From positions 248,001 to 312,000 of the forward strand of contig CALHGZ010000008.1 of the NCBI GenBank assembly GCA_938031175.1: a stretch of DNA of 64,000 nucleotides. The letters run 5' to 3'. Positions within the stretch are counted from its first letter, which is position 1. Each line of letters starts with the position of its first letter. Under the pieces are notes generated by a model. That model was not told the DNA's origin. It did no database searches and saw only the letters and a list, made by a program, of their open reading frames with translations. Of the stretch, positions 6,241 through 10,743 are shown in pieces. A program made the translations under genes and the position numbers. This DNA is from Candidatus Kapaibacterium sp. (GTDB lineage: Bacteria > Bacteroidota > Ignavibacteria > Kapaibacteriales > UBA2268).

Positions 6241-6966
6241 ATGAATAAAGCAAATCTATCAATTATAATAATTATTATACTCTTGTTATCTCAAGTTCAT
6301 TCCTATTCAAAAAGTCTTTCTTTGTTAATCCCATACGGCTCTGATACTACAATTATTGCTAATCCTAATGAAGAATTCGTTAAATTCATTCATAAAATTC
6401 AAAATAATGGTTTGGCAAGCATAAATGTAAAAACAATGGTAAAGGTAATCGAAATTACTGAAGGACATCTGTATAGTTTCTGTGATTTAAACCAGTGCTA
6501 TCCCTTCACAAATCAGGATTTTGAGCCTTCATTGCCTTTTTCTCTCGGTGGATTAGAAGCAACTGATGATTATTTCTATATTGAGATAAAAACTAATGAT
6601 ATTGCTGGCAAAACTATACTGCATATAACTTTTTATAATGAAGCTGATATAAGCGATTCAGTTGGATATACTTTAACTTTTGATGTTGCTACCTCAATCG
6701 CGGAAATATCCCTTCCTATGGAAATTTCTATCTTCCCCAATCCAGTAAAGGAAATTTTATTATTTGATTTATCAAATTTACCATCAGAACTTAAAAGTTT
6801 GCGAATTTATAATTATACCGGAGCAATTATATTTTCAAATGAAAAAATTGCACACTCTTCTTTAATACAATTAAGAGTTGATAATTTATCGCAGGGATTA
6901 TACTTTTATGAGCTTAAAACTAAAAATGGGAGCAGATTTAATGGTAAATTCATTATCTCCAGATAA
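6241..6966 (+). CDS. Secreted protein with type A C-terminal sorting (T9SS) domain
   Basis: A 241-aa exported protein with an N-terminal signal peptide (about residues 1-22). The last 80 residues form a Por secretion type A tail: the opening ISIFPNPVKEILLFDL, the middle LRIYNYTGAIIF, then LSQGLYFYELKT and a basic end (KFIISR). The N-terminal 160 residues resemble no family I know; they contain a beta-rich segment with two cysteines (CDLNQC). It is a likely type IX cargo exported to the surface. The last 14 bases overlap the end of a small convergent gene. Confidence 0.82.
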   Translation: MNKANLSIIIIIILLLSQVHSYSKSLSLLIPYGSDTTIIANPNEEFVKFIHKIQNNGLASINVKTMVKVIEITEGHLYSFCDLNQCYPFTNQDFEPSLPFSLGGLEATDDYFYIEIKTNDIAGKTILHITFYNEADISDSVGYTLTFDVATSIAEISLPMEISIFPNPVKEILLFDLSNLPSELKSLRIYNYTGAIIFSNEKIAHSSLIQLRVDNLSQGLYFYELKTKNGSRFNGKFIISR

Positions 6967-7132: not shown

Positions 7133-8694
7133 TTTTTATCCCTTGATAGTTTCCACATTGCTATTTTTGGTATTCCATCGCAACTAATAACATCATCGAA
7201 TTTAACAATTAATTCCAAATCATCAACGCAAATTTGCCCAACCTCTTTCTTATAAAGAGACGAATATATTCTAAATTCTAATTTACCATCAAAGCGATAA
7301 TAATTTTCATAACCCATCAATTTCTGTGAAAACAACTCATAAGGTGCTATAAAATATTCAAGATTATTAATTCTAATGTATTTATCAATCCCATAATTAA
7401 CTAAATCATCTTGAAATTTGAAATCATTCATCAAACCATCAATTGGCACAATTTTCATATCTGAGAAATAAGCAATCAACCCGGGCCATTCGTAAATCAT
7501 TATTCTGCTATCCGCTGGTAAATTTTCTTTCAACCACTTACCAACATAAATTAACCAACGACAATTATTAGTACTCTTAAATTGGAAAGGATTGAAACCT
7601 CTTGCCTCGGGATTAAAGTATTCTGACCAGCTACGGCTTATACCAAGAAACGAAATTATAATTGTTACAATTATTGTAAAATATTGAAATTTATATCCAA
7701 ATTGTAGTTTATCTTCTATTTTATCAACAATCAATGGCAAAAAAAAGGCTATTGTAATTACACCCGTTACATAATACCAAGCCCAATTTGTATGATGATC
7801 TGTGAAAATAACAACATACAGCGATGAGATTAAACTTGATGATGACAATATAAAAAGTAAATTCCCTTTATTATCTTTAATTTTCATCATAAATATTGAT
7901 AAAAAGCAAATTAATACAATAAACGTAACTAATTGACCAAATGTTCCAAGAGAATTTATGTCAAATGTTGCTGTTGGAAAGATACTTTTAATAGCTCCGC
8001 TAATTGGAACTATATGTCCCCAGTTTTGGTAGTTATAATATAAATATGGTAAAACAATAATAAATGAAAAAAATGCTGAAATCAAAATATATTTAAAATT
8101 AATTTTTTTATCTTCTGTAATAAATGTATAATAAATTAGAATGATTGTGATGAAGAATAAATTATCGAGGCGTGAAAGAAACAAAATTCCCAAAATTAAT
8201 CCAAGTAATATTGAACTCTTTATGTTTAATGTATTATTTTTTAAAATAAATAATAATGTAATAAAATGCATCAATCCATTTATATGGGCTTCAGAAGCAT
8301 AATTACCGATTGACAAAAAATAACTTGCTATAATTGGCACAGAGATATAAAAATTACGAATCGAAAGTATTTTAGATATTTCATAAAAAATATAAATAAT
8401 CAGCAGAAATATAATTGCTTGGGAAAATACAACATATTTAAGTAAAAGTAGTTTATCATTATCGGCAATTAAAGCAAGAACGATGCATATCCCCATCCAT
8501 AATGGATGATATCCATTTGTCGTTGTAATTTGATTGAATGTACTACCATTGCCTGCAACAATATTATGAGCTACTTGAAGATAGAAAAATGAATCATCAG
8601 ATGGAAACTGCCAGGGTTTCAAAATAGCAGGAAGGACTAACAGAATAAACCCTATTATCCATAATATAGATGTAAATTTTATTTGCTTTAACAT
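7129..8694 (-). CDS. Multi-span membrane protein, GT-C (GT39-like) glycosyltransferase family
   Basis: A 521-aa polytopic inner-membrane protein with about ten to eleven hydrophobic helices and a soluble C-terminal region of about 110 residues. The first periplasmic loop has the PSDDSFFY motif with acidic pair D33-D34, then VAHNIVAGNGSTFN and TNGYHPLWMG, the pattern of GT-C enzymes that use polyprenyl-phosphate sugars as donors. The acceptor is unknown; protein or lipid glycosylation are options. The stop codon overlaps the TTG start of a 59-aa exported peptide. Confidence 0.75.
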   Translation of the reverse strand: MLKQIKFTSILWIIGFILLVLPAILKPWQFPSDDSFFYLQVAHNIVAGNGSTFNQITTTNGYHPLWMGICIVLALIADNDKLLLLKYVVFSQAIIFLLIIYIFYEISKILSIRNFYISVPIIASYFLSIGNYASEAHINGLMHFITLLFILKNNTLNIKSSILLGLILGILFLSRLDNLFFITIILIYYTFITEDKKINFKYILISAFFSFIIVLPYLYYNYQNWGHIVPISGAIKSIFPTATFDINSLGTFGQLVTFIVLICFLSIFMMKIKDNKGNLLFILSSSSLISSLYVVIFTDHHTNWAWYYVTGVITIAFFLPLIVDKIEDKLQFGYKFQYFTIIVTIIISFLGISRSWSEYFNPEARGFNPFQFKSTNNCRWLIYVGKWLKENLPADSRIMIYEWPGLIAYFSDMKIVPIDGLMNDFKFQDDLVNYGIDKYIRINNLEYFIAPYELFSQKLMGYENYYRFDGKLEFRIYSSLYKKEVGQICVDDLELIVKFDDVISCDGIPKIAMWKLSRDKN

Positions 8695-8864
8695 TTTTCA
8701 GCCATACAATTATATTTATTATCATATTTAAAGATTGAGCAATAAAAAAATATCTTGCATTAACAAAATTTTATCATTAATTTGCATACAAATATATTGC
8801 AAATTTTGGATTGTTACAGTTATTTTCATCAGTTCCAGACACATTGATTTCCCAATTTTTGGTT

Positions 8865-8894
8865 TTGAATTCACAATCACTTTGACAGGGGGAT
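8865..8894. repeat. Left arm of 30-bp inverted repeat around the RRM gene
   Basis: Read on the minus strand this arm starts ATCCCCCTGTCAAAGTGATT and matches 28 of 30 bases with the plus strand at 9226-9255. Mismatches are at the 21st and 28th positions. The arm lies in the leader of the RRM gene. Confidence 0.85.
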
Positions 8895-8899
8895 TGTGA
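8871..8899. repeat. 8-bp dyad in the RRM gene leader
   Basis: TCACAATC (8871-8878) and GATTGTGA (8892-8899) are perfect inverted repeats separated by 13 bases. It overlaps the left arm of the longer inverted repeat. It could be an operator or an mRNA hairpin. Confidence 0.55.
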
Positions 8900-8939
8900 T
8901 TATTTTTTTGTTTTATCTAATTTTTCAAAGGTTTTTATT

Positions 8940-9182
8940 ATGATTCTTTATGTTGGAAATTTGCCTTTTAGCTGCACCGAGCAGCAAGTCCGATCTGTTT
9001 TTGAACAGTTCGGTCCAGTTCATTCTATAAAATTAGTTACAGATCGAGACACCGGACGCAAAAAAGGTTACGGTTTTATCGAAATGGACCCCGAAGATGG
9101 AGCACGTGCTATTGAAAATCTAAATCAAAAAGAATTTGGCGGAAGAAACTTAAAAGTTAACGAAGCCCGCCAACGCGATTAA
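8940..9182 (+). CDS. RNA-binding protein with one RRM domain
   Basis: An 80-aa protein that is almost entirely one RNA recognition motif. RNP2 is LYVGNL (residues 3-8) and RNP1 is KGYGFIEM (42-49), with aromatic residues Tyr4, Tyr44 and Phe46 in the RNA-contact positions. Small RRM proteins of this type in cyanobacteria and Bacteroidota bind single-stranded RNA and are often cold-induced; no direct regulatory evidence is visible here. The gene stands alone and is enclosed by a 30-bp inverted repeat, one arm in its leader and the other across the 3' end of the convergent murE gene. The 245-base upstream gap suggests a long leader. Confidence 0.93.
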   Translation: MILYVGNLPFSCTEQQVRSVFEQFGPVHSIKLVTDRDTGRKKGYGFIEMDPEDGARAIENLNQKEFGGRNLKVNEARQRD

Positions 9183-9225
9183 ATCTGCATTTTTAGCAAT
9201 AATATTGCTTGCGTATTATATGGTT

Positions 9226-9255
9226 ATCCCCCTGTCAAAGTGATTTTGAATTTAA
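9226..9255. repeat. Right arm of 30-bp inverted repeat, overlapping the 3' end of murE
   Basis: This arm covers the murE stop codon (9235-9237) and its last six codons. Its partner lies at 8865-8894 in the RRM gene leader. The two could pair in a transcript running through the RRM gene. Confidence 0.85.
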
Positions 9256-10743
9256 TAAATTCGAATAGTATTCAACCCGCTCTTTGTCATCAAATGGAAA
9301 TTTTTGAGTTCCAATTATCTGATACCGCTCGTGACCTTTGCCAGCTATCAATATTATTGTATCATTATCTGAATTTTCGACTGCATAACGAATTGCTTCA
9401 TCACGATTTGTTATACAGATTGCTCTAAGACGTGATTCGTTATTGAGCCCTTTGTAAATATCTTCTATTATTTTATCTGGTTCTTCTGTTCTTGGATTAT
9501 CACTTGTTATAATTACACCATCGGCAAGTTCGCCAGCAATTTTGCCCATAATTTTTCTCTTCGATTTATCACGGTCTCCGCCACAACCAAATACACATAA
9601 TATCCTCTTATCGTTTTTTGCAATTTCCCTCAAAGTCAAAAGAGCTTTCTCAAGTGCGTCAGGGGTATGGGCATAATCAATAAATGCTATTGCACCATTT
9701 TTAAGTTCCAATTTATCCATTCTACCCGGTGCACCTTTGACATTTTTGATAAGATCTATCAATTTTTCTAACGGAAGACCATTATATAATGATTGTGCAA
9801 TTGCAATCGCTAAATTTTCAATATTAAATCTCCCTGTTAATTGAGAATTTATTTCTATTTCTTGGAAATTGAAGAAATCGCTGTTATTAATTAGTGTAAA
9901 CTGTACAAAATTGATTCCGAGTTTCTCATTGGCAATTATCAAATGATTGGATTTCTTCCAGCCAACATTTATTATAACCTTAGCGATGCAATTCTCAACA
10001 ATTTTCCCGCTAAAAGATGAATCCCCATTAAGTATTGCAATTGAATTCTCATTAAGACTATCGAACAAAATTTTTTTCGCACTTAAATAATTATCCAAAT
10101 TTATATGATAATCCAGGTGGTCTTGTGTAAGATTGGTAAATAATGCATAATCAAAATCAATGCCGATTACTCTGCCTTGTTTTAGTGCATGAGAAGAAAC
10201 CTCCATAAATATGTTAGTTACACTACTTTTGTTCATTTTATCAAAATAAGAAAATAAATCCTTTGACTCTGGGGTTGTGTTAATCGTATCTATATGATTT
10301 TCACCATAAATGACGCCTGTTGTACCAATTATACCAGATTTAATCCCTGTAGATTCATATATTTGATGAAGTATATAGGTAAGAGTAGTTTTTCCATTTG
10401 TACCCGTTACACCGGTTAAATTTATTTTATTTTTGGGATAATCATAAAACCAATTCGAAATTGATGATAATGCTTTTCTGCTATTTTCAACTTGAATATA
10501 AACAATGTTATTAGGTAATATTAATTCCTTGAAATCCATTTCACCAACTATTATCCCAGCATTTCCTTTTATTGCTGCCGGAATATAATTATGTCCATCT
10601 ATTGTCTCGCCTTTTATAGCCACAAATACTGAACCTTGCCGACATTTGCGGGAATCATATTCAATTGAGACAATTTCATAATCGCGTTCATTATAAAATT
10701 TTGCATTCTGTAATAACTTCTTTAATTCTGATAATTTTTTCAT
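9235..10743 (-). CDS. murE: UDP-N-acetylmuramoyl-tripeptide synthetase (meso-DAP adding)
   Basis: A 502-aa Mur ligase that adds the third amino acid of the peptidoglycan peptide. The ATP-binding motif GVTGTNGKTT is at residues 111-120, followed by the ligase core with FTNLTQDHLDYH. The DNPRTEEP motif near residue 415 is the one that binds meso-diaminopimelate, so the product is the DAP tripeptide. It is a single gene, not in the usual dcw cluster. The last codons overlap one arm of the inverted repeat that encloses the RRM gene. Confidence 0.95.
   Translation of the reverse strand: MKKLSELKKLLQNAKFYNERDYEIVSIEYDSRKCRQGSVFVAIKGETIDGHNYIPAAIKGNAGIIVGEMDFKELILPNNIVYIQVENSRKALSSISNWFYDYPKNKINLTGVTGTNGKTTLTYILHQIYESTGIKSGIIGTTGVIYGENHIDTINTTPESKDLFSYFDKMNKSSVTNIFMEVSSHALKQGRVIGIDFDYALFTNLTQDHLDYHINLDNYLSAKKILFDSLNENSIAILNGDSSFSGKIVENCIAKVIINVGWKKSNHLIIANEKLGINFVQFTLINNSDFFNFQEIEINSQLTGRFNIENLAIAIAQSLYNGLPLEKLIDLIKNVKGAPGRMDKLELKNGAIAFIDYAHTPDALEKALLTLREIAKNDKRILCVFGCGGDRDKSKRKIMGKIAGELADGVIITSDNPRTEEPDKIIEDIYKGLNNESRLRAICITNRDEAIRYAVENSDNDTIILIAGKGHERYQIIGTQKFPFDDKERVEYYSNLLNSKSL

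Follow-up and report, generated by a model that had tools for sequence, protein, structure and literature searches.

Why should the gene of a small RNA-binding protein lie between two inverted copies of the same 30 nucleotides? In the window, that is, the whole 64-kb stretch of DNA analysed here, the gene in question occupies positions 8940..9182 of the plus strand and codes an RRM-domain protein of 80 aa (PF00076, RRM_1, E 2.9e-23). An earlier note on this DNA had described inverted copies at 8865-8894 and 9226-9255 agreeing at 28 of 30 positions. Our analysis confirmed them as above chance and unique in the genome: the two 30-nt arms are complementary at 28/30 positions (93%) and stand 331 nt apart. 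Both arms were read on the plus strand. The 5′ arm belongs to the RRM leader. It precedes the likely SD and includes, at 8887-8893, the purine tract AGGGGGA. The 3′ arm belongs to the 3′ flank of the RRM gene. murE runs convergently with that gene, and the arm is antisense to the stop and the six final codons of murE.

How far does this arrangement exceed chance? The arm core, AATCACTTTGACAGGGGGAT, has 20/20 identity between the inverted copies. With up to three mismatches allowed, it was found at two places only in the 64-kb window (mean in shuffled sequences 0.01), and a search of the 2.69 Mb genome at the same tolerance gave no copy beyond the two arms, so the core is no dispersed repeat. 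In the window, no other exact inverted repeat with copies up to 1500 nt apart is as long; the next one (loop of at least 50 nt) has 14 nt, and the longest in 60 windows simulated by a Markov-3 model (loop of at least 50 nt) reached 18 nt against the 20 nt observed. When complementarity between upstream and downstream flanks was scored for 165 ORFs of the genome, the RRM gene included, this gene came first with 63.5 and the runner-up had 42.0. Complementary segments thus flank one coding sequence at a level above chance, which is one of the traits of a bacterial mRNA with 5′UTR-3′UTR pairing of the icaR/hbs kind. The exact 20-nt core had 0 matches in the viral_contigs search. A Rfam scan of positions 8000-9700 returned four matches at E<=5, every one under the gathering score, and hence no known RNA family.

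We think it reasonably likely, judging from the letters and from folding models, that in the RRM mRNA one arm pairs with the other to form a long-range helix joining the two UTRs, 5′ and 3′, and that this helix probably acts on mRNA stability. The predicted minimum free energy structure of the window locus pairs both arms (-117.1 kcal/mol, z -6.17 against 100 shuffles). The number of leader nucleotides expected to be paired with the 3′ UTR is 31.9, compared with 4.8 when the 3′ UTR is shuffled, and none of 20 shuffles was as high.

An answer at the level of DNA would be an inverton whose two orientations connect the RRM gene to its own promoter or to the murE transcript. Invertons of Bacteroidota cover a range of arm length and spacing into which the window arms fall. 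However, PF00239 (serine recombinases) has 0 matches in the genome, and the two matches of PF00589 (tyrosine recombinases), which we take to be perhaps XerC/XerD, both lie on other contigs; the arm has no other copies, and the arms of relatives are shorter and imperfect. With these two recombinase families searched and the arm unique, the invertible segment was rejected as a candidate, and we give it very little credence. The same results, together with the bulges in the arms of relatives, left unsupported the idea that the pair is a scar of the insertion or inversion of a cassette holding the RRM gene.

What is the part of murE? The gene at 9235..10743 of the minus strand matched the three Mur-ligase Pfam domains, and its identity as murE among the Mur ligases is putative. 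Reading the sequence bears out the previous description of the right arm as covering the murE stop and last codons: it spans the final six codons and the stop and extends 9 nt further. The earlier note had gone on to see in the left arm an inverted copy of the murE end. This need not be the case, as the murE tail of the window outlasts the proteins of most relatives. After the conserved FDD-like motif it has 16 residues, whereas 26 of 28 other proteins have 7-13 and the two remaining ones 14 and 21 (all counted by eye). The arm therefore lies in a non-conserved tail and need not derive from murE. The suggestion that murE mRNA pairs in trans with the RRM leader has the wrong polarity, murE mRNA being of the same sense as the leader arm. 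From the sequence, the murE transcript could instead compete for the RRM 3′ arm without pairing with the leader arm. A terminator scan of 8600-9400 gave no terminator-like site on the plus strand and a sole one on the minus strand, at 9156-9174, about 60 nt past the murE stop and inside the RRM gene; murE RNA terminated at that site would include the right arm.

The adjacency of the two genes is particular to the window genome. In the relatives examined the best RRM and murE matches never adjoin, the closest pairs being about 5 kb apart (genomes G016 and G025), and a contig search with murE gave one distant locus. Elsewhere in the window, the protein coded at 6241-6966 has a C-terminal tail that resembles what we take to be the motif of a type IX secretion sorting domain, which fits an origin in Bacteroidota, as does the type of promoter.

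Which part of the leader is transcribed depends on the promoter used. The -7 consensus is TAnnTTTG, and promoter calls of this kind are pattern matches, weak in the window. Promoter-like boxes are present both upstream of the 5′ arm and, in one instance, downstream of it. The first candidate is a -7 box, AATTTTTG, at 8854..8861 of the plus strand with a weak -33 element, directly 5′ of the arm; if it is used, the arm would stand at the 5′ end of the mRNA. The second, TTG-N19-TTAATTTG at 8755..8784 (plus strand, box 8777-8784), was the automatic choice and would put the arm inside the leader. The third, TTG-N18-TTTTTTTG, was read from the sequence at 8882..8910 (plus strand). As the sole promoter it would leave the 5′ arm out of the RRM transcript, and the inverted repeat would then want another explanation, most likely a scar. 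Past the arm, on the same strand, come a U-rich tract at 8900..8926, with like tracts seen by eye 5′ of many relatives' RRM starts, and the likely SD of the gene, AAAGG, at 8927..8931, outside the arm. A 15-codon frame at 8896-8943 follows behind the AGGGGGA tract, and its stop overlaps the RRM start codon (ATGA). As an upstream ORF (GTG 8896 to TGA 8941-8943) it was rejected, having no counterpart by eye in the relatives' genes L074 and L075, where the frame ends early.

The leader also offers a local fold, TCACAATC/GATTGTGA followed by a U run, at 8871..8899 of the plus strand. It overlaps the 5′ arm and is thus mutually exclusive with the long helix. Could the locus then be an attenuator or antisense switch, in which the hairpin with its U run (8871-8909) stops transcription, and the 3′ arm of another RRM transcript, or a sRNA derived from the 3′ UTR, opens it in trans? 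The mutual exclusion of the two structures is as such a switch would have it, and a hairpin followed by a U-rich tract is seen by eye in the leaders of several relatives. Against this, the window hairpin is not significant (z -0.91, with 32 of 200 shuffles as good) and was not listed by the terminator scan, and we regard the switch as improbable.

If the preferred reading, a helix between the two UTRs of one mRNA, is right, then we can ask: Is the pairing kept where the letters have changed? A RRM match was found in 48 of 54 genomes of the family, and family and order together supplied 76 distinct RRM genes with usable flanks. The relatives compared belong to other genera, and the window arms themselves represent one genome of their genus. 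In genus g18 all three species compared (genes L006, L077 and L078) have exact complementarity between leader and 3′ flank over 13, 14 and 12 nt, respectively, in stretches with differing letters (TTTGAGAATTTTT, GTTTTGGGAAATTT and AGGATTTTTTGC). The distance from the end of the 5′ stretch to the start codon is 54, 69 and 61 nt. The 3′ partners begin at 14-17 nt, counting from the stop codon's first base, and the 3′ arm lies by eye between the stop codon and a T-run hairpin. Promoter-like boxes precede the 5′ arm, namely TAAATTTG (TTG at 19), TATATTTT (17) and TATTTTAG (19), and pairing starts 18, 8 and 12 nt after them; a promoter-like box of the TTG-N17 to N20 type stands upstream of the 5′ arm in these three genes and in L010 of lineage g4. 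No other ORF had an exact stretch as long as that of the RRM gene in the g18 genomes G052 (0/88) and G017 (0/94), and by alignment score one in each reached the RRM value (1/88 and 1/94). For g18 stretches cut around the arms, and so picked after the arms had been seen, p was 0.0014, 5e-5 and 0.0024.

In the plain MAFFT alignment of the three g18 sequences, both partners have changed in 3 of 15 pairs. Its covariation was matched by 35 of 500 shuffles and its paired share by 41 of 500. Paired cells make up 86.4% of this alignment against 63.6% and 71.1% at slides of -1 and +1, a peak at zero slide that is partly built in, the register being the best of those scanned. The 3′ arms of g18 fit their own 5′ arms better than swapped ones do, except that the L006 5′ arm scored higher with the L078 3′ arm (33.0 vs its own 29.0).

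In lineage g39 all three genes (L074, L075 and L076) have a bulged and weaker pairing, AAATAG..TTAGGAT with ATCCTAAGACTATTT, placed before a terminator-like hairpin; by eye, the 3′ arm is followed by a hairpin with a T run. The three species are near-identical to one another and count as one case. Here a promoter-like site, TTG-N18-TATTTTTG, lies downstream of the 5′ arm and by eye is a better match than that of the window. In g4, L010 (genome G003) has a leader segment, GCCTAACG-AAAGGGAAGG, that pairs imperfectly with the 3′ flank at distances near those of the window (p 0.004), and the two other g4 genes, L089 and L126, fail at the window position (p 0.74 and 0.73). In L010 a local stem, CTATAGAATTATAAA / TTTATATTCTATAG, is possible with the 3′ arm in its loop, which would leave the arm exposed for pairing. 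Among the g21 paralogues, L109 pairs over 23 nt, with two G-U and a single mismatch, and in L106, L107 and L113 the pairing is shorter or broken. These four paralogues also have a conserved leader block, TGAGCTTAC..AAATAGATTC, after a promoter-like box, and g21 leaders carry a hairpin with a U-rich tail before the SD, resembling a separate kind of structured leader. Taken over all 76 RRM genes, the test at the window position gave p<=0.05 in seven: the window gene, L010, L109, L114, L122, L011 and L096.

These comparisons bear directly on the possibility that the repeat is a functionless scar of template switching or inverted duplication, in which one flank received an inverted copy of about 30 nt from the other. 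The window match, 28/30, is far cleaner than that of the relatives, as of a recent copy, many RRM genes are without such a pair, and the both-sided changes come from g18 and not from the window's own arms. Against a scar stand the complementary arms with other letters at the corresponding places of g18, the similar placement in L010, and the both-sided changes in g18, which are suggestive. The scar is in our estimate unlikely, though it deserves more weight than the inverton or the attenuator. With some relatives that have the same layout and different matching letters, the repeat looks more like an RNA structure than a DNA scar. The stem joining the RRM leader and the 3′ region, which the earlier note had proposed, is supported by the complementarity in g18, g39 and one of the three g4 genes.

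Folding predictions for the relatives hint at two kinds of leader. The expected pairing between leader and 3′ UTR, own against shuffled, was 23.0/4.6 nt for L010, 20.8/10.5 for L006 and 20.0/6.0 for L077, and in L005, L004 and L084 it was above 19 of 20 shuffles. In L078, L074, L075 and L076, by comparison, the leader pairs equally well with 6, 5, 4 and 6 of 20 shuffled 3′ UTRs. The leaders of g20, of L085 and L086, and of four of the five g8 genes have more local pairing (28-59 nt; L081 only 11). The predicted folds are thus suggestive of leaders that either pair with the 3′ UTR or fold locally, a pattern noted post hoc among 22 selected genes whose leader lengths were fixed manually. In the g8 leaders of L008, L082, L083 and L084, a segment with a GGAT-like core can by eye pair with the upstream leader in place of the 3′ UTR, in letters particular to each species.

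Is the pairing then a property of RRM genes in general? In a test of leader/3′-flank complementarity anchored on predicted promoters, 12 of 73 RRM genes and 8 of 301 other ORFs had p<=0.05 (Fisher 4.5e-5); the test was devised after g18 had been seen, and its counts are uncorrected for relatedness. The 12 significant genes are non-independent, since they include five orthologues from g18 and g39 and, with L114, a paralogue from g18. At p<=0.01 the counts were 4/73 vs 4/301 (Fisher 0.050). The window RRM gene is outside the 12 because the automatic box at 8777-8784 left its arm beyond the tested stretch. Unanchored, the test gave 8/76 RRM genes vs 13/347 other ORFs at p<=0.05 and 4/76 vs 5/347 at p<=0.01, and the best alignments of L006 and L074 were other AT-rich stretches, not the arms. 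In all these comparisons control ORFs start at the first ATG/GTG/TTG and RRM genes at starts set by homology, so that some control starts are misplaced. When each 5′ segment was ranked with its own 3′ partner among 73 (row/column), the ranks were 1/1 for L077 and L078, 1/2 for L010, 1/3 for L075 and 2/2 for L006; over 76 genes, without anchoring, the own-partner ranks gave KS p 0.0023, with composition unmatched. The comparison with relatives, by which the earlier note had meant to judge the repeat, came out divided: complementarity with other letters is present in g18 (3/3), g39 (3/3) and g4 (1/3), but 61 of 73 RRM genes were non-significant in the anchored test. Given this last count and the several leaders that fold locally, pairing as a trait of all RRM genes was rejected.

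How might the helix work? Both arms would be carried in one RRM mRNA, and their pairing would bring its 5′ end and its 3′ UTR together. The helix may keep both ends of the mRNA double-stranded and so set its lifetime, either by end protection or through RNase III processing; a helix with 20 bp perfect and 30 bp near-perfect could be a substrate of RNase III (compare icaR, PMC3868564, in the part of that paper available). The likely SD lies outside the helix, which makes an effect on decay likelier than a direct block of the SD. An SD sequestration of the icaR type was rejected as a candidate, as the arm ends at 8894 and the likely SD begins at 8927. Feedback by the RRM protein itself may act through the adjacent U-rich leader, a plausible site between arm and SD. 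In the window genome, where the 3′ arm reaches the end of the convergent murE, the competition by the murE transcript considered above could come in addition.

A wider proposal, which we put forward tentatively and think doubtful as a whole, is that RRM mRNAs of this Bacteroidota-like family carry a co-evolving helix of 5′ and 3′ UTR by which the mRNA becomes a closed loop. Lineages would either pair (the window genus, g18, g39 and one g4 species) or fold locally (g20 and most of g8), with the RRM protein and, in the window genome, the convergent murE transcript modulating the choice. If true, a pairing that persists between species while its letters change would be evolutionary evidence for selected closed-loop mRNAs in bacteria, and the self-dosage control of an RRM-type RNA-binding protein would become testable.

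How does the locus compare with systems already described? In the available part of one review, three cases of 5′-3′ UTR pairing within one bacterial mRNA are named: RNAIII, icaR and hbs (PMC7821165). Our narrow literature search turned up no description of RRM mRNAs paired in this way, which is weak evidence of absence. A protein to compare is RbpB of Bacteroides thetaiotaomicron, which prefers AU-rich sequences frequent around ribosome-binding sites and has a binding site in its own mRNA (PMC11697453). The likeness is that of an RRM protein of Bacteroidota; the difference is that the available part of that paper reports no 5′-3′ UTR pairing. RNAIII of S. aureus resembles what is proposed for the window locus in the long-range pairing of its 5′ and 3′ UTRs (PMC7821165), but it is a dual-function regulatory RNA.

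Closer in letters is icaR of S. aureus, as described in the accessible portions of two papers: UCCCCUG of its 3′ UTR pairs with UAGGGGG of the leader, which is the SD, and RNase III cuts there (PMC3868564), and the pairing motif is absent in S. epidermidis (PMC7821165). The window arms would pair AGGGGGA with UCCCCCU. However, the icaR partner is the SD itself, whereas in the window some 46 nt separate the tract from the start, and the likely SD comes after it. The resemblance in sequence is probably a coincidence, since the arms of g18 and g39 are without a run of five G. In hbs of Bacillus subtilis, going by what is available of the source, a 14-nt pairing between the 5′ and 3′ UTR of one mRNA protects the 5′ UTR from cleavage by RNase Y, and orthologues in close relatives do not conserve the 3′ UTR (PMC7821165). 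With hbs the window locus would have in common that the 5′ and 3′ UTR of one mRNA pair by a short stretch. The two differ in that protection has been reported for hbs and the window locus is known from its sequence, and in that the hbs 3′ UTR is not conserved, whereas the g18 species keep the complementarity with changed letters.
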